Source of the DNA: Salminus brasiliensis
Taxonomy: Eukaryota; Chordata; Actinopteri; Characiformes; Bryconidae
Direction: 5' to 3'
Assembly (NCBI RefSeq): GCF_030463535.1
Contig: NC_132892.1
Coordinates: 30,524,936 to 30,588,935 of the forward strand
DNA: 64,000 nucleotides
Position numbers and translations under genes: made by a program. Below are positions 6,710-59,448 of the stretch, piece by piece (within the stretch, counting starts at the first letter, position 1; each line of letters begins with the position of its first letter). Below the pieces are notes generated by a model. The model did no database searches. It was not told the origin of the DNA and worked only from the letters and a program-made list of their open reading frames with translations.

Positions 6710-9700
6710 TCAAGCAATCACACATTTTGATTCAATTTTTAGTTCATCAATTTCTGCTCGTAATTTTTTAATTTTCGCACTTTTTTGACCCTCAGTGAGT
6801 TTATAGAGATTCTCCAGAAGCTCATACCGTTTCTGATGCTGTTCAGTGAACAACAGGAAGTGTTTTTGTCTTTCATTGAAGTCATTGACCTGCTCTGCCT
6901 GCTTTCTGACAATATCTTCATATTTACTCTTCATGTCCTTCATTTCCTGATCATGCTTCTTTTCCAATTCCTCACGTTCCTTCTTCTCTCTAGCCATGCT
7001 TTCTTCCTCTCTCCTCTCAATGTTCTCCTGACATTCTCTTCGTATCTCCTCTTCTCTTTCCTGCAGTCTTTTTCTTTCTTCTTCTCTTTTCTTGTCTTCT
7101 TGTCTTCTTCTCTCCTGCTCTTCCCTCCTCATTTTCTCCATCTCTGCTTCCATTGCACGTTTCTTTTTCTCGTACTCTTTGTCTTTTTGCTCACTTTCTT
7201 CCCTCCACTTTCGTTTCTCCTCTTCTCGCCGAAGTCTTTCTTCCTCCATATCCCTTTCAAAGTTCTCTCTCATTCTGTCTTGTTCTTCTAGTTTTGTTCG
7301 TAGCTCTTCAGCGTGTCCTTGCCTTCTCTGACGGTCCTTTTCCTGTAGTTCCTTCATCTGTTTTTTCTTCTCGTCTTCCCATTCCCTCAGTTTACGCTTC
7401 AGGCCGTCTTGTATCTCCTTCTTCTCGTGTTCAGCCTCTTTTATTTTCCTCTCCCAAGTATGCCTCTCATCCACTTCTTCTTTTCTCCTTCTATCCTCCT
7501 CCAGATCTCTCTTTCTAATTTCTTCATCTTGTCTCTTTCTCAGATCTTCCATGGCTTGTTTTTGTTGATTTCTGAAATGTTCTTTATCTTGTTTGTATCT
7601 CTCTTCTCTCTTTTTGTCCTCCTCATCTCTCTCATTCAGCTGCTTTTCAAATTCATCTCTCTGCTTTTTATTCTCCATTTCTAACTCATTAATCCTGCTT
7701 TGCCATTTCTCCATTTGCTTTCTTATTTCTTCTGACCTCACTCTGTCCTCCATCTCCTGTTTCTTCTTTTCTACTTCATCTTTTTCCTCAAACTCTTTTT
7801 TAAGAGTTTCCATCTTTTCTTTATATTTTCTCTCTATTTGCTGTTTTTCATAATCAGCCTTTTGTTTTTCGTCCTCCAGTCTTTTCTTCAGCTCTTTCAT
7901 TTCTTGGCTGTATTTGGTTTTTAGTTTCTCTTTTTCAGCTTCAATCTCTTGCTCTTTCTCTTTCAGAATTTCCTCAATTTTCTTTTTGATGGACATTTCT
8001 GCCTCTTGGAACATGCTGTTTGTAAAGAACTGACTTGATGTGTTTGAGTTTATCACAGTTTCAATCTGTATCAGTAGTTCAGAGACTTGGGTGCGGTCGT
8101 TTTTTTCTCGGTTATTGAATAACACAATCCTGTTTCCACAGTCTCTGAGCATCTTATTGACTGGCTCAATTGTACACTTCTCTATGTACTGGTTTATTGT
8201 CTGATCTTCCAGGTCATCTGCTCTAGTGAACAGCACTATGCTGAACATTGCAGCCTTTGGACCAAAGATCTTTTTTATCAGCTCTAAAGTCTCCACATCT
8301 TCTTGGCTGATTCTTCCGATGCTCAGTACAATGATGAACGCATGGGGTCCAGGTGCTGACATTGAGATGCACTTTACAATTTCTTGCTGTATTTCTTTTT
8401 TTGACAGTGTGGCATCAAACAGGCCTGGAGTGTCAACAACAGCAACTGTTCTCCCCAGCACCTCACCAGTTCCTTTTTGGCAAACCCTTGTCACAGAATT
8501 CATACTGGCTTCAGTAACAAATTCCTTTCTTCCCAGGATATTGTTTCCTGTTGCACTCTTTCCATTCCCAGTCTTTCCAATCAACACCACTCGTAAGCAA
8601 CTGGAAACCCGTTCTTCCTCTTCATCACCTGAAGAAAACATTAGTACTAGTTATTCATTGTGTTACTTTACAATGTGTTCCTCAGGTAAACCTCATGATT
8701 ACAGTTTAAAGTGCTGCTCTAAACCCTTTACAAATTCTGTTTAAGATTTAAGCTATAATTTGGTCAGATCTTCATCTTATTTCTCTCACTACATGAAGAG
8801 AATGACACAAGTTATGTAAATTAATTTCCTGAGCAAACTCAGTACTGAGCATGTGTGTAGTTTTGGTGAAGTTGTAATCAGGTACCAGCAACATCTACAG
8901 GAGAATATCAGATTATCCATCTGTTGCCTGAAGCGTAACTGTAAATGGGCCAAGAAAAAGATACTAGGCACACAAATATGTCTAAAAAGAAATGGATAAA
9001 GCAGGAGAAAATCCCCATTTTGAAGTCGTAGGACTCTAAAAAGAGTCCTCCACCCAGTATTGCAAAATTAAACCCGATTATCGAAAATGTTTGACTGATG
9101 TTCACATACTTTTTTTCAAATGTATTTAATGTTGGATCATTCTAAAATAAAATAAAATAAATAAACTTATATTATAAACTATAATATATTATTATGATTA
9201 TTATGATGATTATCATGTTTTTCTAGTTTAAGAACTTATGATAAAGATCTAATGACATTTATGATTACATTTATTTAAAAAAACTGAAATTGTAAATGAG
9301 TCACAAGCTTTCTAACAACATGTCATCATTTAATGAAGAATAAGTATGAACACAACACAAATACATACACAAATACAATATTTTCCAATAAGTACTGCCA
9401 TGCTGAAGATGCTTCTGTGATCTAAATATCATAGATTTGTGAGTAGATCTTAAACAAGCTGGGCAGCAAGACAACCCAATAACATTTTAGAACTAGAGGC
9501 CTTCTACAAAGAAGAGTGGGCAAACATCCAACTACAATAACTGAAAGACTTTTAGCTACAAAAACCGTGTGTGAGCTTTCTGCTAAAGCTGGTGTTAAAG
9601 TCCGGACTCTGTAAGGTGGCCAACCTTTTTTTTTTATGTTGTGATGGAAAATTTCAAAATATTATGTTTTATATTTGATTAGCTACAGAGGGTGTGTTTA

Positions 9701-12700
9701 CTACTTCTCAATTACAAAAAGATGTAATTTGACCAAGGGTGCCCAGTCATTTTTATTGGAATCTGCAGCCACTGTGGCTTCCACTGGACACTGCTGATGT
9801 AAATTGAAAACAGTGTTCATACTGTTCAGGTTGATTTAAATTCTAGACAGTAATAAACACTGATTAATCTTATTTTGTCTGTGTGTATAACTATATTGCA
9901 ATACACTGCTTTTAAATATAATATTTGACATTCTTTGTTAATACAGTGTCCAGAATCACTGCTGAAGAACTCTGAGGGATTGCTTGAATGAACATAGTCA
10001 AAGCACCTACCTTTTGACCGGAGCTTCTTCCTTAACTCCTCATTTTCCTTCTCCTTTTTGCTCAGCTCTTCTTTATGCTCTTCCTCCACTTCACGTCTGA
10101 CTCTTTCTTCCTGAGCCCTCACATACATGTCAAGAGAATACGGCTGTGCTTCTATCTTTTTTATAATATCCTCCAACAGCTTTTCACCTGCTTGTTTGAA
10201 GGATTTCCTCAACTCTGTTTTCACTATTATGTGTCTCTGATCACACACAGCAAGAAAGTCCCTTATTTCTGTGCTGTGTTCAGTAAACTCTGTGACAGGT
10301 TGACTGACAGCATGCTCTGTTGTAAACAGGACTATTAAATTGTCTTTCACTCTGGAGCTGAAACTGTCCTGAATCTTCTCCATTTCTCCTTTGTGCTCAT
10401 CAGTGAGGGGACCAACAGGAACGACGAAGAGGAAAGCATTGGACTCCAGGGTCACAGAGAGAGACACAGTGGAGAGCTGCATACTTCACTTCCTTCTCTT
10501 GAGTGTAGCAGAGAGCTGGTATCTCCACCAGGGTAACTGAGCGTCCAGACACTACTCCAGTTCTCCTCACACACGTTAAGCTGGGCTCTGGACTACGCTG
10601 GCTCTGGCCCAGTATGAGGTCTGATATGGAGGCTTTCTGTGCTCCATCATGCCCACAAAGCACCAAGTTCAACCTCTGAGACACTGAATGAGAAAAACAA
10701 CATATCGTATTAGTCAGGTTTAGAACAGAGACCTCTACAATTAAGAACGAGAAATTCACATGAGCAAAACTGCCCCCTTCACTGGACCCCAAGTCTAAAA
10801 GTCTGAACATTTTAATTAACATTTAAATTGTGGCCAACTAAGAGCTGAATTATTGATGTATTTCTGTGTAAACTGTTCACATAGTAATAATATAGGGGTG
10901 AGAAACATTTCATTTAAAACTAGAAACGTGCATTTCCATAGGAAACTGCAGAATAATCATGCAGCTGAATTGTGCAGGTCAATTCTAGGTGGTTGCTAGG
11001 CAGTTGCTGTACTGTTTTAACTAACAGTACCAACTGCATAGAAATTATGGTTGGTAAGTTGCTTACTATGGTCTTGCTAATCAGTTTCTCTGCTGTTCCA
11101 AGTGGCTGCTATGCTGTTGCTAAGCAGTTGCTATGTTTCCCAGGGTGTTGCTAAATGGGTGTTTTTTGTTAAATGGGGGTGGGGTGCTGCTAGACAGTCG
11201 CTATCCCATACATGATGGTTGACATGGTGTAGCTAGGTGATTGCTATGCTGTTCAAGGTAATTGCTATGTGGCAACTATGATCTCCCCACATGGTTGCAA
11301 TGGAGTTGCTATGTGGTTGCTATGCTATTTAAGGTGGTTGCGATGTGGCAGTTATAATTTTCCACATGGCTGCAATGGTGTTACTAAGAATACTGCTATT
11401 ATTAAATTTAGACCATCGGTTCCATTGAGATATGGCGGAAAAGAACTTGCCTGTCTTGAAAACTGGGGCATTGATTTGGCCGTCAGAAATCTGGGAGAAA
11501 AATAGCTTTGCACAATCATCCATGTATTACTCACCCAAGTCATCCTGTTTACCACCACGAGAGAATATCTGCATCAGGCCCCCAAATCTTCCTCCTGGTT
11601 GTGGAATATAAATCATGAGCATAGTAAGGTGATTATTACAGTTTTCTGTAATAGTGCAATTCTAATACCTGATTTATTGCAAACAGTGATCAATTTCAAC
11701 TAATGAAACTGTTTTTAACGGAATTTTTGTGACATACTTTTCTTTTTCGGTGCTGTCGGTTGAGCCGCTCTCTGTACTGTTGATTCAGTGTCTCTCTGTG
11801 CCGTTGATTCAGTCTCTGTCTGTGCCGTTGATTCAGTGTCTCTCTGTGCCGTTGATTCAGTGTCTCTCTGTGCTGTTGATTCAGTCTCTGTCTGTGCCGT
11901 TGATTCAGTCTCTGTCTGTGCCGTTGATTCAGTCTCTGTCTGTGCCGTTGATTCAGTCTCTGTGTGTGTTGTTGATTCAGTCTCTGTCTGTGCCGTTGAT
12001 TCAGTCTCTGTCTGTGCTGTCGGTTCAGTCTCTGTCTTTTCAGTTGATTCAGTCTCTTGTGTTGTTGATTCAGTGTCTGTCTGTGCTGTTGATTCAGTGT
12101 CTCTCTGTGCCGTTGATTCAGTCTTTGTCTGTGCTGTTGATTCAGTCTCTGTCTGTGCCGTTGATTCAGTGTCTGTCTGTGCCGTTGATTCAGTGTCTGT
12201 CTGTGCCGTTGATTCAGTGTCTGTCTGTGCTGTCGATTCAGTCTCTGTCTTTTCAGTTGATTCAGTCTCTTGTGTTGTTGATTCAGTGTCTGTCTGTGCT
12301 GTTGATTCAGTGTCTCTCTGTGCTGTTGATTCAGTCTTTGTCTGTGCTGTTGATTCAGTCTCTGTCTGTGCTGTTGATTCAGTCTCTGTCTGTGCTGTTG
12401 ATTCAGTCTCTGTCTGTGCCGTTGATTCAGTCTCTGTCTGTGCCGTTGATTCAGTCTCTGTCTGTGCCGTTGATTCAGTCTCTGTCTGTGCTGTCGATTC
12501 AGTCTCTTGTGTTGTTGATTCAGTGTCTGTCTGTGCTGTTGATTCAGTGTCTGTCTGTGCTGTTGATTCAGTGTCTCTCTGTGCTGTTGATTCAGTCTCT
12601 CTCTGTGCCGTTGATTCAGGGTTTGTCTGTGTTGTTGATTCAGGGTCTGTTGGTGGTCGAAGCTTTTGCTGTTCTGTTGCAGGTGGAGTCATCACAAATT

Positions 12701-14364
12701 CCTCCCATTTAAGGTGACCTCCTCCATTCTCTTCAACCATCTTCTCCATCAGCTCCACAAGAGCAGACGGACTGCTTCCACTTCTAAAGTCAAAATGCCA
12801 GTTACTGAACTCTGCTATGATCTCATCAGAGACATTCTCTTCACCTGGATCTACACTGCTGCCGGGTTGCGTCAGCACTATGGTGTATTTACAGGCCTCC
12901 TCAGATAAAGACCGGAGGATGAAATTCAGCTGTTTCCTGTCTGCCTCAGTGAAGTCGTCTCGCTGTAGGACCAGAACTAGAACATGAGGTCCAAAAGGAC
13001 ATAGAGACATGCACTCTCTCACTCGCTCATCCAGTTCCTCGTTAGAGAGTTCAGTATCAAACAGGTGAGGAGTGGTGACGAGGCTGAAGCTTTTTCCCTT
13101 CACGTTTCCTCTTGCTCCCTCACTGCGGTGAGGAGGAGTTTCAGCATCGAACGCATCTCTTCCCAGAATGAAGTTTCCCACTCTTCTGTTTTCCTGGTCG
13201 TTCTTCCCCAGCAGCAGAATCTGCACTGCGTAATGACAGCGATACTCTTAAATCCACAATATTTCCCACAATTTCATGCAAATTCAAAAACACTCTAATG
13301 GTTAATGGTCCAACTTATGATTTCTGAAGAACAGAACATTTACATGTAATTCAAAGAATTCAGTGTAGTAAATCCAGAGAGTAGGAATTCAGTGTAACTT
13401 ACTGAATGGAGGCGGGGTTAGACTTCGCCTCCTCCGAGGTTGTGATGGATCTGTGCCACAAACAGGAGTTACGAGTTACTTTCCCATGTACTAATGTTAT
13501 GCAGCTGTGACATCTAATGCTAGGTGGAAGGCCATGTTAGGTCTCTATCTGTAAATCTAGAAGCATTCCAACAAATCCTCCAATGTTGAGATATCACTGC
13601 ATTACTTAAAATGAACATGCTGTTTTTATTCATACAAATATTATTAGTTAAAAACGTTGACTTTTGCACTAAATTCCAAATGATTCCAGTGTTTGCCAGC
13701 TGTTTTAAACTAAACTACCAATTCAAAAAAGATTCACTACATTAGATCTGACCATCAGACTGCACACTTCACATCAGTGTACTCCTTATACTTTAAAATC
13801 AACACTGGTTCTGGTTTGAGCCAAGTATCATTTGGGCTCAACACTATCGTGTAGCCCACCGGTGTGAACATTGTGAAAAATTATTTTAGTCTTTATGTAG
13901 ATATTTCATATGGAATAATGGTGACATTCAGTACAGGAACTGTATTTTGCTGAACTAATAACAAACTTTCATGTAAAACCAATCAATAACTTACCAAAAA
14001 TGTTTGGCCCTTTTTAAATGTTCTGTTATCTGTGAAGAATCTATAAGCCCTTTCTGTGTTAATGTATGATTAACTGTGATTTATAGAAACAGGACAGTAT
14101 TAATACATTTCAGTACATTAAATAACTAACTAAGTAAGTAAGTAAGTATAGGTTTCACATATAAAAGGTGCTGAATATGTGGTTAAACCTCGTATAGACT
14201 CTGGTAGTAACTCACTACTATCACTGTCTCTGTCTATAAGACACACTGCTGAACTGCATTAAACACTGGACTGGAACAGGCTTCTCTTTTTCATTACTCA
14301 TTATTTTAAAATGATTTTAATTGGGTTTTACAGAAACTGGATACTTACAGATACTCGACGCCAT
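6710..14364 (-). CDS. Triple-AIG1-domain GIMAP-like GTPase, unit 1 (frameshifted in exon 5)
   Basis: Predicted exons on the minus strand: 14349-14364, 13403-13450, 11738-13225, 11535-11594, 10011-10683, 6710-8628, all with GT-AG ends and phase 1 junctions. Translation starts at ATG 14364 in a good context (AGAAATGG), giving MASSIYPSQPRRRRS. Exon 3 holds AIG1 domain 1, with a degenerate P-loop (GKNDQENRRVGN), then a Thr/Glu/Gln repeat. Exon 5 holds AIG1 domain 2, also without a P-loop. Exon 6 holds a canonical AIG1 domain (GKTGNGKS, DTPGLFD, TRADD), about 400 residues of charged coiled coil, and a terminal CVIA that fits a CaaX box. One extra T near 10439-10440 shifts exon 5, ending the protein near residue 631 and losing domain 3. 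Exon 5 is frame-neutral (phase 1-1), so its skipping would bypass the break. GIMAPs are immune-related GTPases of lymphocyte survival and membranes; the role here is inferred. Confidence 0.8.
10977..11375. repeat. Degenerate GTTGCTAKG repeat in intron 4, unit 1
   Basis: Many spaced copies of GTTGCTAGG/GTTGCTATG (for example GGTGGTTGCTAGGCAGTTGCT) across about 400 bases. This is a motif type common as minisatellite in fish introns. It lies between exons 4 and 5 of the GIMAP-like gene and has no coding role. Confidence 0.75.
11767..12652 (-). repeat. Coding 24-bp VNTR, exon 3 of unit 1
   Basis: About 37 copies of a 24-bp unit encode an 8-residue repeat with consensus TESTAQ(T/R)(E/D); a few units are 21 bp (TESTTQE). 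All length changes keep the frame, as expected for a translated array. It links the first AIG1 domain to exon 4. The other frames, including on the plus strand, are also open because the period is a multiple of three. Confidence 0.9.
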
Positions 14365-14460: not shown

Positions 14461-14599
14461 TATTATTTATCCTCACATTTAGTCTGAAAGCTCATCTTAC
14501 ATCTGACTTCTAAATATAGCGTAATCTGAAGCCCTGGGTCCGCCTCTCTGATCCAGGGTCTGTCTGTGGCTCTGTCTTCATAACTTTACATATTCATAT

Positions 14600-15180: not shown

Positions 15181-15337
15181 TGGAATCCAATCAGGATTGT
15201 TCATACCCTTATTACTGTGATTGACAGGTGTTTGAACCAATCGGCGTCCTGTATTGTCCCACCAACGGCCAATCGTTGGTCAAACTGAGCAGGTTCAGCT
15301 ACGAGTCTGGGAGGGGGCGGGACAGGCAGTTCTCCAG
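15181..15337 (+). repeat. Unit 2, partial upstream copy of the promoter-like block
   Basis: Second copy, cut off at CAGTTCTCCAGTG, of the CCAAT/GC-box block that is complete at 16050-16510. It retains two CCAAT boxes and a GC box but runs into a TAG array. It differs from the full copy by small changes such as GCTACGAGTCTGGGAGGGGG. Confidence 0.8.
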
Positions 15338-15727
15338 TGATGTAGTATTAGTAGTAGATGTAGGAGTAGTTTTAGTAGTAGTAGTAGATGTAGTATTTGT
15401 AGTAGATGGAGGAGTAGTAATAGTAGTAGTGGATGTAGTAGTAGTAGATGTAGTATTAGTAGTAGATGTAGGAGTAGTTTTAGTAGTAGTAGATGTAGTA
15501 TTTGTAGTAGTAGGAGTAGTTTTAGTAGTAATAGATGTAGTATTAGTAGTAGATGTAGGAGTAGTTTTAGTAGTAGTAGATGTAGTATTTGTAGTAGTAG
15601 GAGTAGTTTTAGTAGTAGTAGTAGATGTAGTAGTAGATGTAGTATTTGTAGTAGTAGGAGTAGTTTTAGTAGTAATAGATGTAGTATTAGTAGTAGTAGA
15701 TGTAGTAGTAGTAGTAGTAGATGTAGC
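15338..15727. repeat. TAG-trinucleotide array, unit 2 array 1
   Basis: About 390 bases of TAG-type repeat between the partial and complete promoter-like blocks, with GTAGTATTTGTAG variants not seen in the matching array of unit 1 but present in unit 5. It is followed (15728-16049) by an AT-rich spacer with no recognised gene, matching 705-1027. Confidence 0.93.
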
Positions 15728-16861: not shown

Positions 16862-18627
16862 GTAGATGTAGTAGTAGATGTAGCTAAGAGTAGATGTAGT
16901 AGTAGTGGTAGTAGATGTAGATGTAGTAGATGTAGGAGTAGTGGTTGACAGTAGATGTAGCTAAGAGTAGATGTAGTAGTAGTGGTAGTAGATGTAGATG
17001 TAGTAGATGTAGGAGTAGTGGTTGACAGTAGATGTAGCTAAGAGTAGATGTAGTATTAGTAGTAGATGTAGTAGTAGATGTAGTATTAGTAGTAGATGTA
17101 GTAGTAGATGTAGTATTAGTGGTAGATGTAGTAGTAGATGTAGGAGTAGATGTAGGAGTAGATGTAGGAGTAGATGTAGCTAAGAGTAGATGTAGATGTA
17201 GTATTAGTGGTAGTAGTAGGAGTAGATGTAGTAGTAGTAGATGTAGTATTAGTGGTAGATGTAGTAGTAGTGGTTGACAGTAGATGTAGCTAAGAGTAGA
17301 TGTAGTATTAGTAGTAGATGTAGTAGTAGATGTAGTATTAGTAGTAGATGTAGTAGTAGATGTAGTATTAGTGGTAGATGTAGTAGTAGATGTAGGAGTA
17401 GATGTAGTAGTAGATGTAGCTAAGAGTAGATGTAGATGTAGTATTAGTGGTTGACAGTAGATGTAGCTAAGAGTAGATGTAGTAGTAGTGGTAGTAGATG
17501 TAGCTAAGAGTAGATGTAGTATTAGTGATTGACAGTAGATGTAGCTAAGAGTAGATGTAGTAGTAGTGGTAGTAGATGTAGCTAAGAGTAGATGTAGATG
17601 TAGTAGTAGTGGTAGTAGATGTAGCTAAGAGTAGATGTAGTATTAGTGGTTGACAGTAGATGTAGCTAAGAGTAGATGTAGTAGTAGTGGTAGTAGATGT
17701 AGCTAAGAGTAGATGTAGATGTAGTATTAGTGGTTGACAGTAGATGTAGCTAAGAGTAGATGTAGTAGTAGTGGTAGTAGATGTAGTAGATGTAGCTAAG
17801 TGTAGATGTAGATGTAGTATTAGTGGTTGACAGTAGATGTAGCTAAGAGTAGATGTAGTAGTAGTGGTAGTAGATGTAGCTAAGAGTAGATGTAGATGTA
17901 GTATTAGTGGTTGACAGTAGATGTAGCTAAGAGTAGATGTAGATGTAGTAGTAGGAGTAGTATTAGTTGTAGGAGTAGTAGTAGTAGGAGTAGTATTAGT
18001 AGTAGATGTAGTAGTAGGAGTATATGTAGTATTAGTAGTAGATGTAGCTAGTAGTAGGAGTAGATGTAGTGGTAGGAGTAGATGTAGTAGTAGGAGTAGT
18101 ATTAGTAGTAATAGATGTAGTAGATGTAGGAGTAGTAGTAGTAGATGTAGTATTAGTAGTAGATGTAGCTAGGAGTAGTAGTAGGAGTAGATGTAGTGGT
18201 TGTAGATGTAGTATTAGTAGTAGATGTAGTAGTGGTAATAGTTTTAGTAGTAGTAGATGTAGAAGTAGTTTTAGTATTAGTAGGAGTAGTATTAGTAGTA
18301 GATGTAGTAGTAGGAGTAGATGTAGTAGTGGTAATAGTTTTAGTAGTAGTAGGAGTAGTATTAGTAGATGTAGTAGTAGTAGTAGTAGGAGATGTAGTAT
18401 TAGTAGTAGATGTAGCTAGGAGTAGTAGTAGGAGTAAATGTAGTGGTAGTAGATGTAGTATTAATAGTAGATGTAGTAGTGGTAATAGTTTTAGTAGTAG
18501 TAGATGTAGGAGTAGTTTTAGTAGTAGTAGGAGTAGTATTAGTAGTAGATGTAGTAGTAGGAGTAGATGAAGTAGTGGTAGGAGTAGTTGTAGTAGTTGT
18601 AGTAGAGGTCATAGTACTAGTAGAGGT
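16862..18627. repeat. Main TAG array with higher-order repeats, unit 2
   Basis: TAG-based array of about 1.8 kb. Between about 16945 and 17930 the phrase TTGACAGTAGATGTAGCTAA returns at least eight times, alternating with GTAGTAGTGGTAGTAGATG segments, so a secondary repeat of roughly 75-120 bp has formed inside the three-base array. The second half (about 17940-18627) lacks this phrase. No gene is seen. Confidence 0.93.
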
Positions 18628-18741
18628 AAACAACTTTCAAATTTAACCACATTCCTCCACGTCTTTTCAACTAATCTGTGCCCTCTGGGGTAGATGTAGT
18701 ATTAGTAGTTGAGGTAGTAGAAGTAGTAGCAGGAGTAGTTT

Positions 18742-18772
<31 letters not shown>

Positions 18773-19520
18773 TTTAATAGTAGTAGATGTAGTAGTAGGA
18801 GTAGTTTTAGTAGTAATAGATGTAGTAGTAGTGGTAGTAGTAAATGTAGAATTAGTAGTAGAAGTAGTATTAGTAGTAGGAGTAGTTTTAGTAGTAGTAG
18901 ATGTAGTAGTAGTGGTAGTAGTAAACGTAGAAGTACTAGTATTAGTAGTAGAAGTAGATGTAGTATTAGTAGTTGAGGTAGTAGAAGTATTAGTAGGAGT
19001 AGTTTTAGTAGTAGTAGATGTAGTATTAGTAGATGTAGCCTGCTTACTTTGTAGTTTTTCTATTATTTTACTATCATTTAAAGTCTTTGTACTTAATGAA
19101 ATATCCTGAACTGGACGACATCTGGTGGACCCTTCTCTTTGGCTCTTTCAGGTAAGAATGCTATGTATAATTAATGTATAATATATACTAATATCTTAAA
19201 GTTACTTTGAGTGTTTGTGCTGCTTTTTAGAGAAGAACAACCTTAAAATGATTCAGATTAGTTGGTTGATCCTGGATTTGTAAAAATATTAAAGTATTTG
19301 AACTGTTAACTGTAATGGGCTTATATGTTATGTTTCTGTTCAGAAATCAAGTCACACAGTCAAGTAAACACAGATTAAGGGCTGGTTATTATATTAAATA
19401 CACACACAATAAGACTAAAGAACCTACACATTAAGTGAAAACTGAAAAGTGTTAAAATGACCACTTCCAAGTTCAACCACGTTTCCTCAATGTCCTTTAA
19501 ACTAATCTGTTCCCACTGGG
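18628..19520 (+). other. Second donor block with TAG array, unit 2
   Basis: Contains a TAG array (about 18691-19039), the ACGACATCTGGTGGACCC segment, and CTTTCAG/GTAAGA (GT at 19152), followed by an AT-rich tail. This is the same block as 3851-4567. No coding exon is recognised. Confidence 0.55.
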
Positions 19521-30181: not shown

Positions 30182-30231
<50 letters not shown>

Positions 30232-30724
30232 AAACACTAAAATGTGCAGAGTGGGAAACTTTGCAGTGACCTATGCTGTTTTATTTTTGCCTCTACTCAG
30301 GAATTATCACTCTGTGTCACCAGTGTTTGATATTAAATGTATTTATTTATAATGTATCAGTGTTTTATTATAAAACTGTTGTTTTTACTAGTAATTACAC
30401 CTGATCAAATACCACTGGCTTTAAATGATCTAATGAACTGTGATTTATAGAAACAGGTCAGTATTAATACATTTCAGTACATTAAATAAGTAAGTAAGTA
30501 AGTAAGTAAAGTTTTCACATATAAAAGGTGCTGAATATGTGGTTAAACCTCGTATAGACTCTGGTAGTAACTCACTACTATCACTGTCTCTGTCTATAAG
30601 ACACACTGCTGAACTGCATTAAACACTGGACTGGAACAGGCTTCTCTTTTTCATTACTCATTATTTTAAAATGATTTTAATTGGGTTTTACAGAAACTGG
30701 ATACTTACAGATACTCGATGCCAT
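21586..30724 (-). CDS. Triple-AIG1-domain GIMAP-like GTPase, unit 2 (longest repeat)
   Basis: Exons on the minus strand: 30709-30724, 29471-29518, 26630-29299, 26427-26486, 24925-25596, 21586-23507. The joined frame is open, about 1795 residues. Residues 1-21 form an Arg/Pro-rich leader. Exon 3 (about 22-911) holds AIG1 domain 1 without a usable P-loop, then about 86 repeats of TESTAQ(T/R)(E/D). Exon 4 (about 912-931) is a linker, GRFGGLMQIFSRGGKQDDL. Exon 5 (about 932-1155) holds AIG1 domain 2, where LCGHDEAQKAS replaces the P-loop. Exon 6 has GKTGNGKS, DTPGLFD and TRADD, then a long Glu/Lys/Arg coiled coil and terminal CVIA. Only the third G domain looks able to bind GTP. A stop follows directly if exon 3 or exon 5 is not spliced, so truncated isoforms are possible. 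The three-domain layout recalls GIMAP8. Confidence 0.85.
25889..26245. repeat. Degenerate GTTGCTAKG repeat in intron 4, unit 2
   Basis: Same repeat family as at 10977-11375, slightly shorter: the segment GTTCCAAGTGGCTGC near 11095 is missing here. Confidence 0.75.
26659..28722 (-). repeat. Coding 24-bp VNTR, exon 3 of unit 2 (about 86 copies)
   Basis: About 2.06 kb of the 24-bp unit, more than twice the length in units 1 and 3 and about twenty times that in unit 4. Units vary at A/T/E in position 5 and T/R/K in position 7, and there are internal blocks such as TEQRETKPTEQTDTESTT that recur, pointing to duplication of multi-unit blocks. No stop or frameshift occurs along the array. Confidence 0.9.
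30183..30229. repeat. (TG)n microsatellite in intron 1, unit 2
   Basis: Pure TG dinucleotide run of about 23 copies. The same site has a shorter run in unit 4 (about 58939-58960) and only a trace in unit 3. Intron 1 of unit 1 lacks the surrounding segment. Confidence 0.9.
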
Positions 30725-44900: not shown

Positions 44901-45677
44901 ATCTGCTACAGGGCAAGCAGTGCAGGCTGCCCCTGTTTCTGTTCCGGCAGTGGTATCTGCGCCTGCTACCAGAGCCGGCCCCCAGGTCGTCTGCTCCAGT
45001 GCCTATGGCTCCCAGGTCGTCTGCTCCAGTGCCTATGGCTCCCAGGTCGTCTGCTCCAGTGCCTATGGCTCCAAGGTCGTCTCCCCCAGTGGCAGCGAAG
45101 AATTTGGTATGACAGCGGTTCCCAATCTTAGTCTGGAAGTAACCCTAACTCTGAATCCAAATAATCAGTTCATTAACAAGCCGTGTGTGTGTGAGAAAAC
45201 CCTAAAATGTCCAGGGTGAGAAACTATGCTGTTTTATTTTTGCCTCTACTCAGGAATGATCACTCTGTGTCACCAGTGTTTGATATTAAATGTATTTATT
45301 TATAATGTATCAGTGTTTTATTATAAAACTGTTGTTTTTACTAGTAATTACACCTGATCAAATACCACTGGCTTTAAATGATCTAATGAACTGTGATTTA
45401 TAGAAACAGGTCAGTATTAATACATTTCAGTACATTAAATAAGTAAGTAAGTAAGTAAGTAAAGTTTTCACATATAAAAGGTGCTGAATATGTGGTTAAA
45501 CCTCGTATAGACTCTGGTAGTAACTCACTACTATCACTGTCTCTGTCTATAAGACACACTGCTGAACTGCATTAAACACTGGACTGGAACAGGCTTCTCT
45601 TTTTCATTACTCATTATTTTAAAATGATTTTAATTGGGTTTTACAGAAACTGGATACTTACAGATACTCGACGCCAT
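35946..45677 (-). CDS. Triple-AIG1-domain GIMAP-like GTPase, unit 3
   Basis: Exons on the minus strand: 45662-45677, 42620-42667, 41000-42442, 40797-40856, 39287-39946, 35946-37864; joined frame about 1381 residues. AIG1 domain 1 and about 35 repeats fall in residues 22-502, the linker in 503-522, AIG1 domain 2 in 523-742, and canonical domain 3 plus coiled coil and CVIA in 743-1381. Exon 5 lacks four codons (12 bases) present in units 1 and 2, and begins ESQRL because its acceptor reads TTTAG/AG. The exon 2 donor is GTAAAT, weaker than the GTAAGT of the other copies. Intron 1 is about 3 kb, enlarged by a Gypsy-like LTR and minisatellite. The frame is intact, so the gene may be active, but exon 2 use could be reduced; loss of exon 2 would keep the frame. 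Confidence 0.83.
40249..40613. repeat. Degenerate GTTGCTAKG repeat in intron 4, unit 3
   Basis: Same family and position as in the other units. Confidence 0.75.
41029..41866 (-). repeat. Coding 24-bp VNTR, exon 3 of unit 3 (about 35 copies)
   Basis: Consensus TESTAQTE, with a run of TESTTHTE units and two copies of a recurring block that contains TESTTQETESTEKTETE, also found twice in unit 1. This block-level sharing suggests the unit 1 and unit 3 arrays descend from one longer array or have exchanged sequence. Confidence 0.9.
43010..44185. repeat. 25-bp minisatellite inside the LTR
   Basis: About 45 copies of a 25-bp unit that begins TCATACCTGCC and ends TGTTCTGTTCTG. Position 12 alternates A/T, the fifth base alternates A/G, and some units lose or gain TTCTG. 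A distinctive pair (GTTCTGTTCTGTTCTG unit followed by a GTCCTG unit) occurs at 43321 and again at 43746, 425 bases apart, showing multi-unit duplication. It is open in several frames only because of its composition. Confidence 0.92.
43010..44488 (+). mobile_element. Ty3/Gypsy-like LTR in intron 1 of unit 3
   Basis: Begins TGTCA and ends TGACA, the short inverted ends of an LTR. Inside are a CACGCCCCC box (about 44286-44294), a TATAAG box (44329-44334) and an AATAAA signal (44437-44442) in the order of U3, R and U5. It is directly followed by GAAGACCAGACCCACAAATG, where fish Gypsy elements have a primer site and the start of gag. Most of the U3-side sequence is a 25-bp minisatellite. No second LTR is seen, so the element is partial. 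It lies opposite in strand to the host gene. Confidence 0.6.
44489..45097 (+). mobile_element. Gypsy-like internal fragment with 30-bp repeats
   Basis: Starts with an ATG frame (44506-44640, MDVAGNPWARCALRKEKEPF) at the usual gag position, soon ended by a stop. Downstream lies Ala/Pro/Val/Ser-rich sequence with four copies of a 30-bp unit (CCCAGGTCGT at 44981, 45011 and 45041, and a variant at 45071). The right edge joins unit DNA at GCGAAGAATTT, which aligns with GGTGAAGAATTC of unit 2 (about 30079). No reverse transcriptase or integrase is present. Confidence 0.5.
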
Positions 45678-47310: not shown

Positions 47311-49124
47311 GTAGATGTAGTAGATGTAGTAGTAGGAGTAGTAGATGTAGATGTAGTAGATGTAGGAGTAGTGGTTGACAGTAGATGTAGCTAAGAGTAG
47401 ATGTAGTAGTAGTGGTAGTAGATGTAGATGTAGTAGATGTAGGAGTAGTGGTTGACAGTAGATGTAGCTAAGAGTAGATGTAGTATTAGTAGTAGATGTA
47501 GTAGTAGATGTAGTATTAGTAGTAGATGTAGTAGTAGATGTAGTATTAGTGGTAGATGTAGTAGTAGATGTAGGAGTAGATGTAGGAGTAGATGTAGGAG
47601 TAGATGTAGATGTAGTATTAGTGGTAGTAGTAGGAGTAGATGTAGTAGTAGTAGATGTAGTATTAGTGGTAGATGTAGTAGTAGTGGTTGACAGTAGATG
47701 TAGCTAAGAGTAGATGTAGTATTAGTAGTAGATGTAGTAGTAGATGTAGTATTAGTAGTAGATGTAGTAGTAGATGTAGTATTAGTGGTAGATGTAGTAG
47801 TAGATGTAGGAGTAGATGTAGTAGTAGATGTAGCTAAGAGTAGATGTAGATGTAGTATTAGTGGTAGTAGTAGGAGTAGATGTAGTAGTAGTAGATGTAG
47901 TATTAGTAGTAGATGTAGTAGTAGATGTAGTATTAGGAGTAGTAGATGTAGATGTAGTATTAGTGGTTGACAGTAGATGTAGCTAAGAGTAGTAGTAGAT
48001 GTAGTAGTAGATGTAGTTTTAGTAGTAGATGTAGGAGTAGTTTTAGTAGTATTAGTAGTAGTAGATGTAGGAGTAGTTTTAGTAGTAGTAGATGTAGCTA
48101 GGAGTAGTAGTAGTAGTAGGAGTATATGTAGTATTAGTAGGAGTAGTAGATGTAGTAGTAGATGTAGTATTAGTAGTAGATGTAGTTTTAGTAGTAGTAA
48201 AAATAGAAGTACTAGTAAAAGTAGTAGTAGTAGAAGTATTAGTAGGAGTAGTATTAGTAATAGTAGATGTAGGAGTAGTATTAGTAGTAGATGTAGGAGT
48301 AGTATTAGTAGTAGTAGATGTAGTAGTAGTTTTAGTAGTAGTAGATGTAGGAGTAGTTTTAGTAGTAGTAGATGTAGTATTAGTAGTAGATGTAGGAGTA
48401 GTAATAGTAGTAGTAGATGTAGTATTAGTGGTAGATGTAGTAGTAGGAGTAGATGTAGTATTAGTAGGAGTAGTATTAGTAGTAGTAGATGTAGTAGTAG
48501 GAGTAGATGTAGTAGTGGTAGGAGTAGTATTAGTAGTAGTAGATGTAGCTAGGAGTAGTAGTAGTAGTAGATGTAGTAGTAGTAGTAGTAGATGTAGCTA
48601 GGAGTAGTAGTTTTAGTATTAGTAGATGTAGGATTAGTTGTAGTAGTAGTAGAAGTAGTATTAGTAGTAGATGTAGTAGGAGGAGTAGATGTAGCTAGGA
48701 GTAGTATTAGTAGTAGTAGATGTAGTAGTAGGAGTAGATGTAGTAGTGGTAGGAGTAGTATTAGTAGTAGTAGATGTAGTAGTAGTAGTAGATGTAGCTA
48801 GGAGTAGTAGTTTTAGTATTAGTAAATGTAGGATTAGTAGTAGTAGTAGATGTAGCTAGGAGTAGTAGTAGGAGTAGATGTAGAGGTAGGAGATGTAGTA
48901 TTAGTAGTAGATGTAGTAGTGGTAGTAGTTTTAGTAGTAGTAGATGTAGGAGTAGTTGTAGTAGTAGTAGGAGTAGTATTAGTAGTAGATGTAGTAGTAG
49001 GAGTAGATGTAGTAGTGGTAGGAGTAGTTGTAGTAGTGGTAGTAGATGTAGTAGTAGGAGTAGATGTAGTAGTGGTAGGAGTAGTTGTAGTAGTTGTAGT
49101 AGAGGTCATAGTACTAGTAGAGGT
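47311..49124. repeat. Main TAG array, unit 4
   Basis: A composite array. The first about 640 bases match the start of the unit 3 array; the remainder (about 47990-49124) matches the unit 1 array (for example the segment with AAAAATAGAAGTACTAGTAAA and the last 300 bases). This is a visible recombination junction within simple repeat DNA. No gene is seen. Confidence 0.92.
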
Positions 49125-51689: not shown

Positions 51690-52230
51690 GACGATGCCAA
51701 GACGAGGAAGATGACTCCACCTTTCCTGCCCAAAAGCCTAGACCTCCCAACGCCGCCGACATGGGCTCTTAGGCTGACAGCAACCTGTATGAGGTGTGTA
51801 AACGGGCCGCCGCCAAACTGGCCATACCGTGGTTAGGTGCACTTAACGAAGATGGGACCTTTATGATTAAAAACAGCTCCCCCACCTCAAACCCCCTGTC
51901 AGGGCCCTGTGTAGTATATAGATAGGACAGCTGGTTTTAGGAGGTACGATCAGCTTTTTGTGTCATAAACTCTTTTTAAAGTTACCCTTGTCTTGTCAGC
52001 GGTTGTCACACTGGATTGTGGGTCCTATTGCTGTGGCATACGAATGTAGGGCTTAGAACTACAGAGGGACATGTTTGCGTGATCCTACAGGCTGCATGTT
52101 TCAGGTTCATTCCTTGCCCAAGGTAATTCCCATAGTGAAACACCTCACTCTGTTATCAAATAACCAGGAATTACGTTCAGTAACCCAACATTTTTCCACC
52201 TCCTGTAAAGTTTCCATTTTTGGGAGATGA
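51690..52230 (+). mobile_element. Internally deleted DIRS-like remnant, unit 4
   Basis: Same two-part remnant. It has lost a short CCTACAAACCCC segment near 51893, and the join reads CTTTTTAAAGTTACCC as in unit 1. It ends shortly past the stop of the minus-strand gene. Confidence 0.5.
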
Positions 52231-52315
52231 GGATTTTCATACAGATGCAGCAGACTGACATTAGGTTAGAATACTACTTTTATGATAATTTCACTGGAGC
52301 ATCATTTTGGACTTC

Positions 52316-55300
52316 TCAAGCAATCACACATTTTGATTCATTTTTTAGTTCGTCAATTTCTGCTCGTAATTTCTGAATTTCCTCACTTTTTTGACCCTCA
52401 GTGAGTTTATAGAGATTCTCCAGAAGCTCATACCGTTTCTGATGCTGTTCAGTGAGCCCCAGTATATGTTTATTTTGTCTTTCATTGAAGTCATTGAATT
52501 GCTCTGCCTGCTTCCTGGCAATATCTTCATATTTACTCTTCATGTCCTTCATTTCCTGATCATGCTTCTTTTCCAATTCCTCACGTTCCTTCTTCTCTCT
52601 AGCCATGCTTTCTTCCTCTCTCCTCTTAATGTTCTGCTGACATTCTCTTCGTATCTCCTCTTCTCTTTCCTGCAGTCTTTTTCTTTCTTCCTCTCTTTTC
52701 TCGTCTTCTTGTCTTCTTCTCTCCTGCTCTTCCCTCCTCATTTTCTCCATCTCTGCTACCATTGCACATTTCTTTTTCTCGTACTCTTTGTCTTTTCGCT
52801 CACTTGTTTCCCTCCACTTTCGTTTCTCCTCTTCTCGCCGAAGTCTTTCTTCTTTCATACCCCTTTCAAAGTTCTCTCTCATTCTGTCTTGTTCTTCTTG
52901 TTTTGCTTGTAGCTCTTCAGCGTGTTTCTGCTTTCTCTGATGGTCTTCTTCCTTTAGTTCCTGCTTCTGTCTTTTCATCTCGTCTTCCCATTCCATCAGT
53001 TTATGCTTCAGGTCCTCTTGTATTTCCTTCTTCTCGTGTTCAGCTTCTTTTATTTTCCTCTCCCAAGTATGCCTCTCATCCACTTCTTCTTTTCTCCTTC
53101 TATCCTCCTCTAGATCTCTCTTTCTAATTTCTTCATCTTGTCTCTTTCTCAGATCTTCCATGGCTTGTTTTTGTTGATTTCTGAAATGTTCTTTATCTTG
53201 TTTGTATCTCTCTTCTCTCTTTTTGTCCTCCTCATCTCTCTCATTCAGCTGCTTTTCAAATTCATCTCTCTGCTTTTTATTCTCCATTTCTAACTCATTA
53301 ATCCTGCTTTGCCATTTCTCCATTTGCTTTCTTGTTTCTTCTGACCTCACTCTGTCCTCCATCTCCTGTTTCTTCTTTTCTATTTCATCTTTTTCCTCAA
53401 ACTCCTTTTTAAGAGTTTCCATCTTTTCTCTATATTTTCTCTCTATTTGCTGTTTTTCATAATCAGCCTTTTGTTTTTCTTCCTCCAGTCTTTTCTTCAG
53501 CTCTTCCATTCCTTGGCTGTATTTGCTTTTTAGTTTCTCTTTTTCAGCTTCAATCTCTTGCTCTTTCTCTTTCAGAATTTCCTCAATTTTCTTTTTGATG
53601 GACATTTCTGCCTCTTGGAACATGCTGTTTGTAAAGAACTGACTTGATGTGTTTGAGTTTATCACAGTTTCAATCTGTGTCAGTAGTTCAGAGACTTGGG
53701 TGCGGTCGTTTTTTTCTCGGTTATTGAATAACACAATCCTGTTTCCACAGTCTCTGAGCATCTTCTTGACTGGCTCAATTGTACATTTCTCTAAGTACTG
53801 GTTTATTGTCTGATCTTCCAGGTCATCTGCTCTAGTGAACAGCACTATGCTGAACATTGCAGCCTTTGGACCAAAGATCTTTTTTATCAGCTCTAAAGTC
53901 TCCACATCTTCTTTGGTGTTTCTTCCGATGCTCAGTACAATGATGAACGCATGGGGTCCAGGTGCTGACATCGAGATGCACTTCACAATTTCCTGTTGTA
54001 TTTCTTCCTCTGACAGTGTGGCATCAAACAGGCCTGGAGTGTCAACAACAGCAACTGTTCTCCCCAGCACCTCACCAGTTTCTTTTTGGCAAACCTTTGT
54101 CACAGAATTCATACTGGCTTCAGTAACAAATTCCTTTCTTCCCAGGATAGTGTTTCCTGTTGCACTCTTTCCATTCCCAGTCTTTCCAATCAACACCACT
54201 CGTAAGCAACTGGAAACCCATTCTTCCTCTTCATCACCTGAAGAAAACATTAGTACTAGTTATTCATTGTGTTACTTTACAATGTGTTCCTCAGGTAAAC
54301 CTCATGATTACAGTTTAAAGTGCTGCTCTAAACCCTTTACAAATGTCTGTATTTCTGTTTAAGATTTAAGCTATAATTTGGTCAGATCTTCATCTTATTT
54401 CTCTCACTACATGAAGAGAATGACACAAGTTATGTAAATTAATTTCCTGAGCAAACTCAGTACTGAGCATATCCAAATAATGTGCAGCTCTAGGAATATT
54501 GGTGTAGTTTTGGTGTAGTTGTAATCAGGTACCAGCAACATCTACAGGAGAATATCAGATTATCCATCTGTTGCCTGAAGCGTAACTGTAAATGGGCCAA
54601 GAAAAAGATACTAGGCACACAAATATGTCTAAAAAGAAATGGGTAAAGCAGGAGAAAATCCCCATTTTGAAGTCGTAGGACTCTAAAAAGAGTCCTCCAC
54701 CCAGTATTGCAAAATTAAACCCGATTATCGAAAATGTTTGACTGATGTTCACATACTTTTTTTTCAAATATATTTAATGTTGGATCATTCTAAAATAAAA
54801 TAAAATAAATAAACTTCTATTATAAACTATAATATATTATTATGATTATTATGATGATTATCATCATGTTTTTCTAGTTTAAGAACTTATGATAAAGATC
54901 TAATGACATTTATGATTACATTTATTTAAAAAAACTGAAATTGTAAATGAGTCACAAGCTTTCTAACAACATGTTATCATTTAATGAAGAATAAGTATGA
55001 ACACAACACAAATACATACACAAATACAATATTTTCCAATAAGTACTGCCATGCCGAAGATGCTTCTGTGATCTAAATATCATAGATTTGTGAGTAGATC
55101 TTAAACAAGCTGGGCAGCAAGACAACCCAATAACATTTTAGAACTAGAGGCCTTCTACAAAGAGGAGTGGGCAAACATCCAACTACAATAACGGAAAGAC
55201 ATTTAGCTACAAAAACCGTGTGTGAGCTTTCTGCTAAAGCTGGTGTTAAAGTCTCTGTAAGGTTGCCAACCTTTGAACACTGATGATTTAGACTTTTATG

Positions 55301-58300
55301 TTGTGATGGAAAATTTCAAAATATTATGTTTTATATTTGATTAGCTACAGAGGGTGTGTTTACTACTTCTCAATTACAAAAAGATGTAATTTGACCAAGG
55401 GTGCCCAGTCATTTTTATTGGAATCTGCAGCCACTGTGGCTTCCACTGGACACTGCTGATGTAAATTGAAAGCAGTGTTAAATTATAGACAGTAATAAAC
55501 ACTGATTAATCTTATTTTGTCTGTGTGTATAACTATATTGCAATACACTGCTTTTAAATATAATATTTGACATTCTTTGTTAATACAGTGTCCAGAATCA
55601 CTGCTGAAGAACTCTGAGGGATTGCTTGAATGAACATAGTCAAAGCACCTACCTTCTGACTGGAGCTTCCTCCTTAACTCCTGGATTTCCTTCTCCTTTT
55701 TGCTCAGCTCTTCTTTATGCTCTTCCTCCACTTCACGTCTGACTCTTTCTTCCAGAGCCCTCATATACATGTCAAGAGAATACGGCTGTGCTTCTATCTT
55801 TTTTATAATATCCTCCAGCAGCTTGTCACCTGCTTGTTTGAAGGATTTCCTCAACTCTGTTTTCACTATTATGTGTCTCTGATCACACACAGCAAGAAAG
55901 TCCCTTATTTCAGTAAACTCTGTGACAGGTTGACTGATCGCATGCTCTGTTGTAAACAGGACTATTAAATTGTCTTTCACTCTGGAGCTGAAACTGTCCT
56001 GAATCTTCTTCATTTCTCCTTTGTGTTCATCAGTGAGGGGACCAACAGGAACGACGAAGAGGAAAGCATGGACTCCAGGGTCACAGAGAGAGACACAGTG
56101 GAGAGCTTCATACTTCACTTCCTTCTCTTGAGTGTAGCAGAGAGCTGGTATCTCCACCAGGGTAACTGAGCGTCCAGACACGACTCCAGTTCTCCTCACA
56201 CACGTTAAGCTGGGCTCTGGACTGCGCTGGCTCTGGCCCAGTATGAGGTCTGATATGGAGGCTTTCTGTGCTCCATCATGCCCACACAGCACCAGGTTCA
56301 ACCTCTGAGACTCTAAATGAGAAAAACAACATATCGTATTAGTCAGGTTTAGAACAGAGACCTCTACAATTAAGAACGAGAAATTCACATGAGCAAAACT
56401 GCCCCCTTCACTGGACCCCAAGTCTGAACATTTTAATTAACATTTAAATTGTGGCCAACTAAGAGCTGAATTATTGATGTATTTCTGTGTAAACTGTTCA
56501 CATAGTAATAATATAGGGGTGAGAAACATTTCATTTAAAACTAGAAATGTGCATTTCCATAGGAAACTGCAGAATAATCATGCAGCTGAATTGTGCAGGT
56601 CAATTCTAGGTGGTTGCTAGGCAGTTGCTATACTGTTTCAACTAACAGTACCAACTGCATAGAAATTATGGTTGGTAAGTTGCTTACTATGGTCTTGCTA
56701 ATCAGTTTCTCTGCTGTTCCAAGTGGCTGTTATGCTGTTGCCAAGCAGTTGCTATGTTTCCCAGGGTGTGGCTAAGTTTTTGTTAAATGGGGGTGGGGTG
56801 CTGCTAGACAGTCGCTATCCCATACATGATGGTTGACATGGTGTAGCTAGGTGATTGCTATTCTGTTTAAGGTAATTGCTATGTGGCAACTATGATCTCC
56901 CCACATGGTTGCAATGGAGTTGCTATGTGGTTGCTATGCTATTTAAGGTGGTTGCGATGTGGCAGTTATAATTTTCCACATGGCTGCAATGGTGTTACTA
57001 AGAATACTGCTATTATTAAATTTAGACCATCGGTTCCATTGAGATATGGCGGAAAAGAACTTGCCTGTCTTGAAAACTGGGGCATTGATTTGGCCGTCAG
57101 AAATCTGGGAGAAAAATAGCTTTGCACAATCATCCATGTATTACTCACCCAAGTCATCCTGTTTACCACCACGAGAGAATATCTGCATCAGGCCCCCAAA
57201 TCTTCCTCCTGGTTGTGGAATATAAATCATGAGCATAGTAAGGTGATTATTACAGTTTTCTGTAATAGTGCAATTCTAATACCTGATTTATTGCAAACAG
57301 TGATCAATTTCAACTAATGAAACTGTTTTTAACGGAATTTTTGTGACATACTTTTCTTTTTCGGTGCTGTCGGTTGAGCCGCTCTCTGTGCCGTTGATTC
57401 AGTGTCTCTCTGTACTGTTGATTCAGTCTCTGTCTGTCGTGTTGGTTCAGTGTCTGTCTGTGTTGTTGGTTCAGGGTCTGTTGGTGGTCGAGGCTTTTGC
57501 TGTTCTGTTGCAGGTGGAGCCATCACAAATTCCTCCCATTTAAGGTGACCTCCTCCATTCTCTTCAACCATCTTCTCCATCAGCTCCACAAGAGCAGACG
57601 GACTGCTTCCACTTCTAAAGTCAAAATGCCTGTTACTGAACTCTGTTATGATCTCATCAGAGACATTCTCTTCATCTGGATCTACACTGCTGCCGGGTTG
57701 CGTCAGCACTATGGTGTATTTACAGGCCTCCTCAGATAAAGACCGGAGGATGAAATTCAGCTGTTTCCTGTCTGCCTCAGTGAAGTCGTCTCGCTGTAGG
57801 ACCAGAACTAGAACATGAGGTCCAGGAAGACACAGAGACATGCACTCTCTCACTCGCTCATCCAGTTCGTCGTTAGAGAGTTCAGTATCAAACAGGTGAG
57901 GAGTGGTGACGAGGCTGAAGCTTTTTCCCTTCACGTTTCCTCTTGCTCTCTCACTGCGTTGAGGAGGAGTTTCAGCATCGAACGCATCTCTTCCCAGAAT
58001 GAAGTTTCCCACTCTTCTGTTTTCCTGGTCGTTCTTCCCCAGCAGCAGAATCCGCACTGCGTAATGACAGCGATACTCTTAAATCCACAATATTTCCCAC
58101 AATTTCATGCAAATTCAAAAACACTCTAATGGTTAATGGTCCAACTTATGATTTCTGAAGAACAGAACATGTAATTGAAAGAATTCAGTGTAGTAAATCC
58201 AGAGAGTAGGAATTCAGTGTAACTTACTGTATGGAGGCGGGGTTAGACTTTGCCTCCTCCGAGGTTGTGATGGATCTGTGCCACAAACAGGAGTTACGAG

Positions 58301-59448
58301 TTACTTTCCCATGTACTAATGTTATGCAGCTGTGACATCTAATGCTAGGTGGAAGGCCACGTTAGGTCTCTATCTGTAAATCTAGAAGCATTCCAACAAA
58401 TCCTCCAATGTTGAGATATCACCGCATTACTTAATATGAACATGCTGTTTTTATTCATACAAATATTATTAGTTAAAAACATTCACTTTTGCACTGAATT
58501 CCAAATGATTCGGGTGTTTCAGCTGTTTTAAACTAAACTACCAATTCAAAAAAGATTCACTACATTAGATCTGTCCATCAGACTGCACACTTCACATCAG
58601 TGTACTCCTTATACTTTAAAGTCAACACTGGTTCTGGTTTGAACACTATCGTATAGTCCACCGGTGTGAACATTGTGAAAAATTATTTTAGTCTTTATGT
58701 AGATATTTCATATGGAATAATGGTGACATTCAGTACAGGAACTGTACTTTTGCTGAACTAATAACAAACTTTCATGTAAAACCAATCAATAACTTACCAA
58801 AAATGTTTGGCCCTTTTTAAATGTTCTGTTATCGGTGAAGAATTCAATATGACGGCGGTTACTGATCCTAGTCCTGAAGTAACCCTAACTCTGAATCCAA
58901 ATAATCAGTTCATTAACAAGCCTTCTCTCTCTGTGTTGGTGTGTGTGTGTGTGTGTGTGAGTGTATAAAACCCTAAAATGTCCAGGGTGAGAAACTATGC
59001 TGTTTTATTTTTGCCTCTACTCAGGAATTATCACTCTGTGTCACCAGTGTTTGATATTAAATGTATTTATTTATAATGTATCAGTGTTTTATTATAAAAC
59101 TGTTGTTTTTACTAGTAATTACACCTGATCAAATACCACTGGCTTTAAATGATCTAATGAACTGTGATTTATAGAAACAGGTCAGTATTAATACATTTCA
59201 GTACATTAAATAAGTAAGTAAGTAAGTAAGTAAAGTTTTCACATATAAAAGGTGCTGAATATGTGGTTAAACCTCGTATAGACTCTGGTAGTAACTCACT
59301 ACTATCACTGTCTCTGTCTATAAGACACACTGCTGAACTGCATTAAACACTGGACTGGAACAGGCTTCTCTTTTTCATTACTCATTATTTTAAAATGATT
59401 TTAATTGGGTTTTACAGAAACTGGATACTTACAGATACTCGATGCCAT
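52316..59448 (-). CDS. Triple-AIG1-domain GIMAP-like GTPase, unit 4 (repeat almost absent)
   Basis: Exons on the minus strand: 59433-59448, 58228-58275, 57352-58056, 57149-57208, 55653-56312, 52316-54237; joined frame about 1136 residues. AIG1 domain 1 with only about four TESTAQ-type repeats covers residues 22-256, the linker 257-276, AIG1 domain 2 277-496, and canonical domain 3 with coiled coil 497-1136. The P-loop GKTGNGKS is at about 514-521 and CVIA ends the protein. Exon 2 has two changes from the other copies (an Arg to Gln in the Arg run, and the last Phe to Tyr). Domains 1 and 2 lack GxxxxGK[ST], as in the other units. With an intact frame and minimal repeat, this copy is the most compact version of the family here. 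Confidence 0.85.
56607..56960. repeat. Degenerate GTTGCTAKG repeat in intron 4, unit 4
   Basis: Same family and position, with a short deletion near 56775 compared with unit 1. Confidence 0.75.
57380..57478 (-). repeat. Coding VNTR remnant, exon 3 of unit 4 (about 4 copies)
   Basis: Only four 8-residue units (DPEPTTQT, DTEPTRQT, ETESTVQR, DTESTAQR) remain. The flanking protein sequence is the same as in the long-repeat copies, so the difference is purely in repeat number. Confidence 0.9.

Follow-up and report, generated by a model that had tools for sequence, protein, structure and literature searches.

Contig NC_132892.1 of the characiform fish Salminus brasiliensis contains, within the 64,000-nt stretch that we analyzed as a whole (the window), four tandem minus-strand units, and each of these joins in silico into a six-exon gene for a protein with three AIG1 domains, the first two of which have lost the G1-G4 motif set that the third retains. 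The array runs from 6710, the final base of the stop codon closing exon 6 of unit 1, to 59448, the A of the unit 4 ATG; these end points agree exactly with the coordinates given in an earlier reading of the sequence (the preliminary description), and blastn places all four copies on the same strand. We think it fairly probable that the product is a GIMAP8-like membrane GTPase in which one catalytic domain is carried together with two scaffold domains.

Architecture of the four units

Every unit has the same exon order: the ATG in an exon of 16 bases, then a 48-base exon, an exon for domain 1 and a coding repeat, a 60-base exon, an exon for domain 2, and a long exon 6 that encodes domain 3 and the C-terminal helix. 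Exon boundaries were picked by eye in unit 4 to make the frames join and transferred to units 1-3 by homology, so the four sets are not independent, and they rest on GT-AG ends and frame joining. All 20 introns are of the GT-AG type and 19 are in phase 1; a frameshift makes intron 5 of unit 1 read as phase 2. The six-exon gene joined through GT-AG introns that had been described beforehand is thus recovered with an open frame in three of the four copies (units 2, 3, and 4) and is interrupted in unit 1, where one extra A in exon 5 (10011-10683) breaks the frame; this base may be a real frameshift or an assembly error. Identity between units is ≈93-97% over the gene parts in most long blastn pieces and ≈80-97% in the spacers. 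The units, with exons 1 to 6 in order, are as follows.

6710-14364, minus strand: unit 1, frameshifted in exon 5, first stop after 638 residues; exons 14349-14364, 13403-13450, 11738-13246, 11535-11594, 10011-10683, 6710-8628
21586-30724, minus strand: unit 2, intact, 1802 residues; exons 30709-30724, 29471-29518, 26630-29320, 26427-26486, 24925-25596, 21586-23507
35946-45677, minus strand: unit 3, intact, 1388 residues; exons 45662-45677, 42620-42667, 41000-42463, 40797-40856, 39287-39946, 35946-37864
52316-59448, minus strand: unit 4, intact, 1143 residues; exons 59433-59448, 58228-58275, 57352-58077, 57149-57208, 55653-56312, 52316-54237

The Pfam search that the preliminary description had proposed as a check on its triple-AIG1 protein bears it out: the joined unit 4 protein contains three AIG1 (PF04548) stretches, at 345 bits against a cut-off of 27. 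In a per-domain Pfam scan of units 1, 2, and 4, the scores in units 2 and 4 were 71.4 and 78.3 bits for domain 1, 75.2 and 69.5 bits for domain 2, and 219.1 and 224.6 bits for domain 3, and the exon 5 fragment of unit 1 scored 42.8 bits. A domain-profile search of the window returned 13 reading-frame pieces of at least 25 residues, which correspond to 12 domains (domain 2 of unit 1 being split over two frames), and found no further AIG1 copies in the window.

57506-58075, minus strand: domain 1 of unit 4, degenerate AIG1 (Pfam, motifs, fold model); counterparts in units 1, 2, and 3 at 12675-13244, 28749-29318, and 41892-42461, minus strand
55654-56310, minus strand: domain 2 of unit 4, degenerate AIG1 with the P-loop Lys present (Pfam, motifs, fold model); counterparts in units 2 and 3 at 24926-25594 and 39288-39944, minus strand, that of unit 1 being frameshifted
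53591-54235, minus strand: domain 3 of unit 4, canonical AIG1 (Pfam, motifs); counterparts in units 1, 2, and 3 at 7982-8626, 22861-23505, and 37218-37862, minus strand

Domain 3 carries GKTGNGKSA, SVTKVC, DTPGLFD, SIGRNTK, and LFTRADD, and in all four copies it retains G1-G4 and the GIMAP arginine position. At the aligned positions, domain 1 reads GKNDQENRR, a gap, TTPHLFD, QRDDFTE, and LTQP, and domain 2 reads GHDGAQKAS (GHDEAQKAS in unit 2), a gap, EIPAL, PVGPLTD, and LFTTEH; the domain alignments cover 11 of the 12 domains, all but the frameshifted domain 2 of unit 1. Neither degenerate domain retains the Ser of the P-loop, the Thr of switch I, the Asp and Gly of G3, the arginine position, or G4; the Lys of the P-loop is gone from domain 1 but present in domain 2 of all four units. 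The motifs quoted in the preliminary description are present, including GKTGNGKS, DTPGLFD, and TRADD in domain 3, and its statement that domains 1 and 2 lack the P-loop and DxxG agrees with the loss of G1-G4 but goes too far for domain 2, with its remaining Lys. The arginine column was defined by alignment to GIMAP7 (3zjc), as the position of the arginine in its 'LGRYT', and an Arg that lies two positions before it in domain 1 was not counted as retained. We take the aligned GIMAP7 arginine to be catalytic, a view supported by the R-fingers reported in AIG1/GIMAP GTPases (PMC11238149).

Between domains 1 and 2, exon 3 closes with a tandem repeat of 24-bp coding units, which encodes ESTAQTET-like units of 8 residues and differs in length from copy to copy.

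26663-28724, minus strand: coding repeat of unit 2, ≈86 units
11750-12650, minus strand: coding repeat of unit 1, ≈37 units
41033-41867, minus strand: coding repeat of unit 3, ≈35 units
57386-57493, minus strand: coding repeat of unit 4, ≈4.5 units
57149-57208, minus strand: exon 4 linker of unit 4, same sequence in all four units
52319-53590, minus strand: C-terminal charged helix of unit 4, 424 residues, proline-free, 60% charged, ending in CVIA

Among the 159 repeat units recognized in copies 1-3, 143 have 8 residues and 16 have 5 to 7. One reading frame is kept across the whole repeat; we dropped its openness as evidence of coding because other frames are also open there. Substitutions change the amino acid about as often as chance expects (ratio 1.16, from a count that left out the 16 of 159 units not 8 residues long and all of unit 4), so it is the length and charge of the repeat, if anything, that matter. 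Exon 4 and intron 3 together (203 bases; 57149-57351 and equivalents) show no substitution among the four units over 60 and 143 aligned bases, with 3.0% variable sites in the flanking domain 1 and 2.1% in intron 4.

In the C-terminal helix of unit 4, residues spaced i/i+4 form 128 opposite-charge pairs versus 39 like-charge pairs, and an excess of the former is typical of single alpha helices. A heptad periodicity was considered and rejected, since the power at period 3.5 was equaled or exceeded by 461 of 500 shuffles; at period 11/3, the observed power was reached in 10 of 500. CVIA terminates exon 6 in all four copies and fits the C-terminal Cys-aliphatic-aliphatic-X pattern (CaaX), so that by this motif rule we take it to be a CaaX-type end.

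Coding constraint and alternative readings

The coding repeat was left out of all exon substitution, dN/dS (ratio of nonsynonymous to synonymous substitution rates), and site-grouping counts. Across the four copies, the exons hold 156 substitutions and 3 indels (of 1, 12, and 3 bases, the 1-base indel being the unit 1 frameshift) versus 53 substitutions and 15 indels in introns 2-5; intron 1, whose length spans 898 to 2994 bases, was left out of this comparison. Indels are depleted in the exons (Fisher p = 1.6e-6; 1.8e-5 for frame-breaking indels only), which is the pattern of protein-coding exons, and we read them as coding because of it. Pooled dN/dS between copies, rough values because unit pairs are not independent, is 0.46 for exon 5 (units 2-4 only, the frameshifted unit 1 copy being left out), 0.55 for the G part of domain 3, and 0.65 for the helix.

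Two observations count against our reading of domains 1 and 2 as nucleotide-insensitive scaffolds. Pooled dN/dS for domain 1 is 2.28, from few changes, and no purifying selection on this domain is shown. For domain 2, a loss of nucleotide binding is not certain from the motifs, given the retained P-loop Lys, and calling domain 1 'inactive' is safer than calling domain 2 so. The first observation, a dN/dS above 1, together with the loss of G1-G4 from both domains and the frameshift in domain 2 of unit 1, is what would be expected if domains 1 and 2 were functionless, decaying remnants and only domain 3 and the helix mattered. We regard this as unlikely: domain 1 has no stop or indel in any of the four copies, exon 5 contains, apart from the frameshift of unit 1, a single in-frame indel of 12 bases and has the dN/dS of 0.46 given above for units 2-4, and both domains exceed the Pfam cut-off and are predicted by structure models to form complete GIMAP-like folds.

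The second observation bears on another alternative, namely that domain 2 (or 1) binds nucleotide without hydrolyzing it, which would leave the protein with a cycling G domain beside a permanently loaded one, as in some septin and tubulin subunits. Some septin subunits are reported to be permanently occupied by GTP (PMC10731463), and the P-loop Lys of domain 2 would suit such a state. The neighboring positions do not: Ala stands in place of the P-loop Ser, the alignment has a gap at the switch I Thr, G3 has Glu for Asp and Ala for Gly, and G4 reads TTEH instead of TRADD. This, too, we hold to be improbable.

It is also conceivable that the AIG1 exons belong for the most part to separate genes or transcripts, with exon 6 used as a single-domain GIMAP of the ordinary kind and minor or no use of exons 3 and 5. 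An in-frame ATG does lie 13 bases upstream of the exon 6 start in all four copies, and units 2 and 3 have another upstream in their exon 5 frame; every copy also has AATAAA or ATTAAA hexamers in four of its introns (1, 3, 4, and 5), and we dropped them as evidence because of this very ubiquity. Against separate genes, no copy offers an ATG ahead of domain 1 in the exon 3 frame, unit 4 lacks one upstream in its exon 5 frame, the context of the exon 6 ATG (GTACTAATGT) is poor and that of exon 1 (CCAGAAATGG) good under the Kozak rule, and one frame joins the exons in three of the four copies. We judge separate genes to be a distinctly improbable arrangement.

The copies themselves group differently along their length. 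In exon 6, 47 of 52 informative sites (38 amino-acid-changing and 9 silent) set units 1 and 3 against 2 and 4; in exon 5, 10 of 13 set units 1 and 2 against 3 and 4; and in the 3' flank, 6 of 9 set units 1 and 4 against 2 and 3. Over the 92 informative sites, to which intron 1 contributed only its first and last 250 bases, there are 19 runs versus 43.8 expected, and none of 10000 shuffles gave as few. The copies are mosaics, for which gene conversion or unequal crossing-over is the best explanation. Selection was considered as the cause of the faster divergence of exons than introns and rejected: divergence is raised at the synonymous sites of exons 5 and 6 as well, and variability is as high in the 3' flank, a pattern that exchange between copies explains better. 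An assembly artefact or a pseudogene block, as the high identity between units, the unit 1 frameshift, and the large spacer repeats could suggest, is a very improbable explanation of the array, because the units differ in a structured, mosaic way and in repeat number, a 1.8-kb gap in intron 1 distinguishes them, and indels are depleted in the exons.

Proposed working and relation to known GTPases

The arrangement that we favor, a single GIMAP/AIG1-family GTPase of GIMAP8-like layout encoded by each unit, would require the six exons to be spliced together in vivo. From its N terminus, the chain would comprise degenerate domain 1, an acidic Thr/Glu/Ser/Gln repeat linker, the exon 4 linker, degenerate domain 2, catalytic domain 3, the helix, and the CaaX-like tail. 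Domain 3 would bind GTP and dimerize with another domain 3 across the nucleotide face, and an arginine of the partner domain 3 would complete hydrolysis in GIMAP fashion. GIMAP2 is reported to dimerize on GTP binding, and hydrolysis may start through dimerization involving GIMAP7 and GIMAP4 (PMC8201404). Domains 1 and 2 would retain the GIMAP fold and serve as nucleotide-insensitive scaffold or docking subunits, comparable to the pseudoGTPase subunits in septin oligomers. The helix would space the G domains from the membrane, which the putatively prenylated end would hold, and the repeat would set the reach of domain 1; the protein may have an immune role. Regulated self-assembly, as put forward in the preliminary description, can reasonably be inferred from one catalytic domain carried with two degenerate relatives. 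More tentatively, and in our view doubtfully, one chain might amount to a built-in G-domain oligomer, a catalytic domain with two pseudoGTPase partners that is prenyl-anchored via a helix tens of nanometers long, and paralogs that differ in tether (4.5 to 86 repeats) and in converted helix and G-domain segments might then form a graded set of membrane GTPase scaffolds.

Membership in the GIMAP/AIG1 family is indicated by AIG1 matches above the cut-off, G1-G4 and the arginine in domain 3, and tandem clustering; the AIG1-specific conserved box is covered by the Pfam match as a whole. GIMAP8, the relative named in the preliminary description, is a sound choice, since mammalian GIMAP8 also has three GTPase domains in one protein. 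Rat GIMAP8 is described as a 688-residue protein with three GTP-binding domains, for which neither a coil nor a transmembrane segment is predicted (PMC2676327), whereas a review credits all human GIMAPs with putative coiled coils (PMC3100574), and PMC4201521 mentions conserved differences in sequence among the three GIMAP8 domains. The proteins described here differ in having 1143-1802 residues, the coding repeat, the 424-residue charged helix, and the CaaX-like end. Mammalian GIMAP8 has three sets of GTP motifs, whereas domains 1 and 2 here lack the G1-G4 set, and by its motifs we therefore assign the present protein a GIMAP8-like layout rather than filing it as GIMAP8 proper. Among the matches listed, no title or abstract opening concerns degenerate domains in GIMAP8, the subscription literature being mostly outside the scope of that search. 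Teleost database entries named GIMAP8-like may often have degenerate first and second domains of this type, which we treat as a lead.

Domain 3 aligns with GIMAP7, GIMAP4, GIMAP5, and GIMAP2 over the full G domain, with the motifs and the arginine position, and domains 1 and 2 align more weakly to these proteins, which have a single G domain, unlike the three here. Membrane-bound GIMAPs are reported to use hydrophobic C-terminal segments (PMC4201521).

Plant AIG1/IAN8 shares the AIG1 domain, presumably as a single copy without the triple layout. Arabidopsis AIG1 is listed as a prenylated protein (PMC6866125), and prenylation in AIG1 proteins thus has precedent. Septin pseudoGTPases offer a parallel in that degenerate G domains serve assembly interfaces beside active ones and nucleotide is said to serve mainly to form proper interfaces (PMC10731463), but septins are separate polypeptides of another family.

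Guanylate-binding proteins combine a G domain, a long helical part, and a CaaX end. They serve as a working analogy only, being another GTPase family without an AIG1 domain, and the joined unit 4 protein, scanned against Pfam to E 0.1, matched only AIG1, MMR_HSR1, FeoB_N, and RsgA_GTPase, with no match to their G domain. No relatives were found in viral contigs with a mixed domain alignment or with any of the three unit 4 domains, or in prokaryotic genome contigs with domain 3 of unit 4; both collections are uninformative on vertebrates.

Teleost GIMAP families are reported to be greatly expanded, up to nearly 190 genes (PMC9245644), with GIMAP8 in particular expanded in an anchovy genome (PMC13403563), and tandem AIG arrays have been described in a snail. 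Because such expansion is ordinary in teleosts and such arrays have a precedent, novelty at the family level is modest; the combination of parts is unusual within the literature searched. No account of the role of the extra GIMAP8 domains appeared among the literature matches listed. The copies differ in tether length and helix segments and share one catalytic domain, and they form a natural comparison set for the question that the array raises, namely why a GTPase keeps two seemingly dead relatives in one chain. The variable coding repeat, the charged helix, the CaaX-like end, the unit 1 frameshift, and the mosaic exchange had not figured in the preliminary description.

Surroundings of the array

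The left edge of the window (1-487) matches the spacer upstream of unit 1 (15220-15726) at 86.5% identity; a further unit therefore probably lies beyond this edge, and the array would continue there, making four units a probable lower bound. In intron 1 of unit 3, a 25-bp minisatellite of ≈47 copies (43009-44177) accounts for more than half of the 1.8-kb extra length. Long arrays of the GTAGTA type lie between or beside the units at 1844-3850, 16868-19032, 32406-33900, 47317-49120, and 61990-62457. Near the right edge of the window, on the plus strand, a reverse transcriptase fragment (RVT_1, E 5.4e-31) spans 62590-63831, which we take to be LINE-like.
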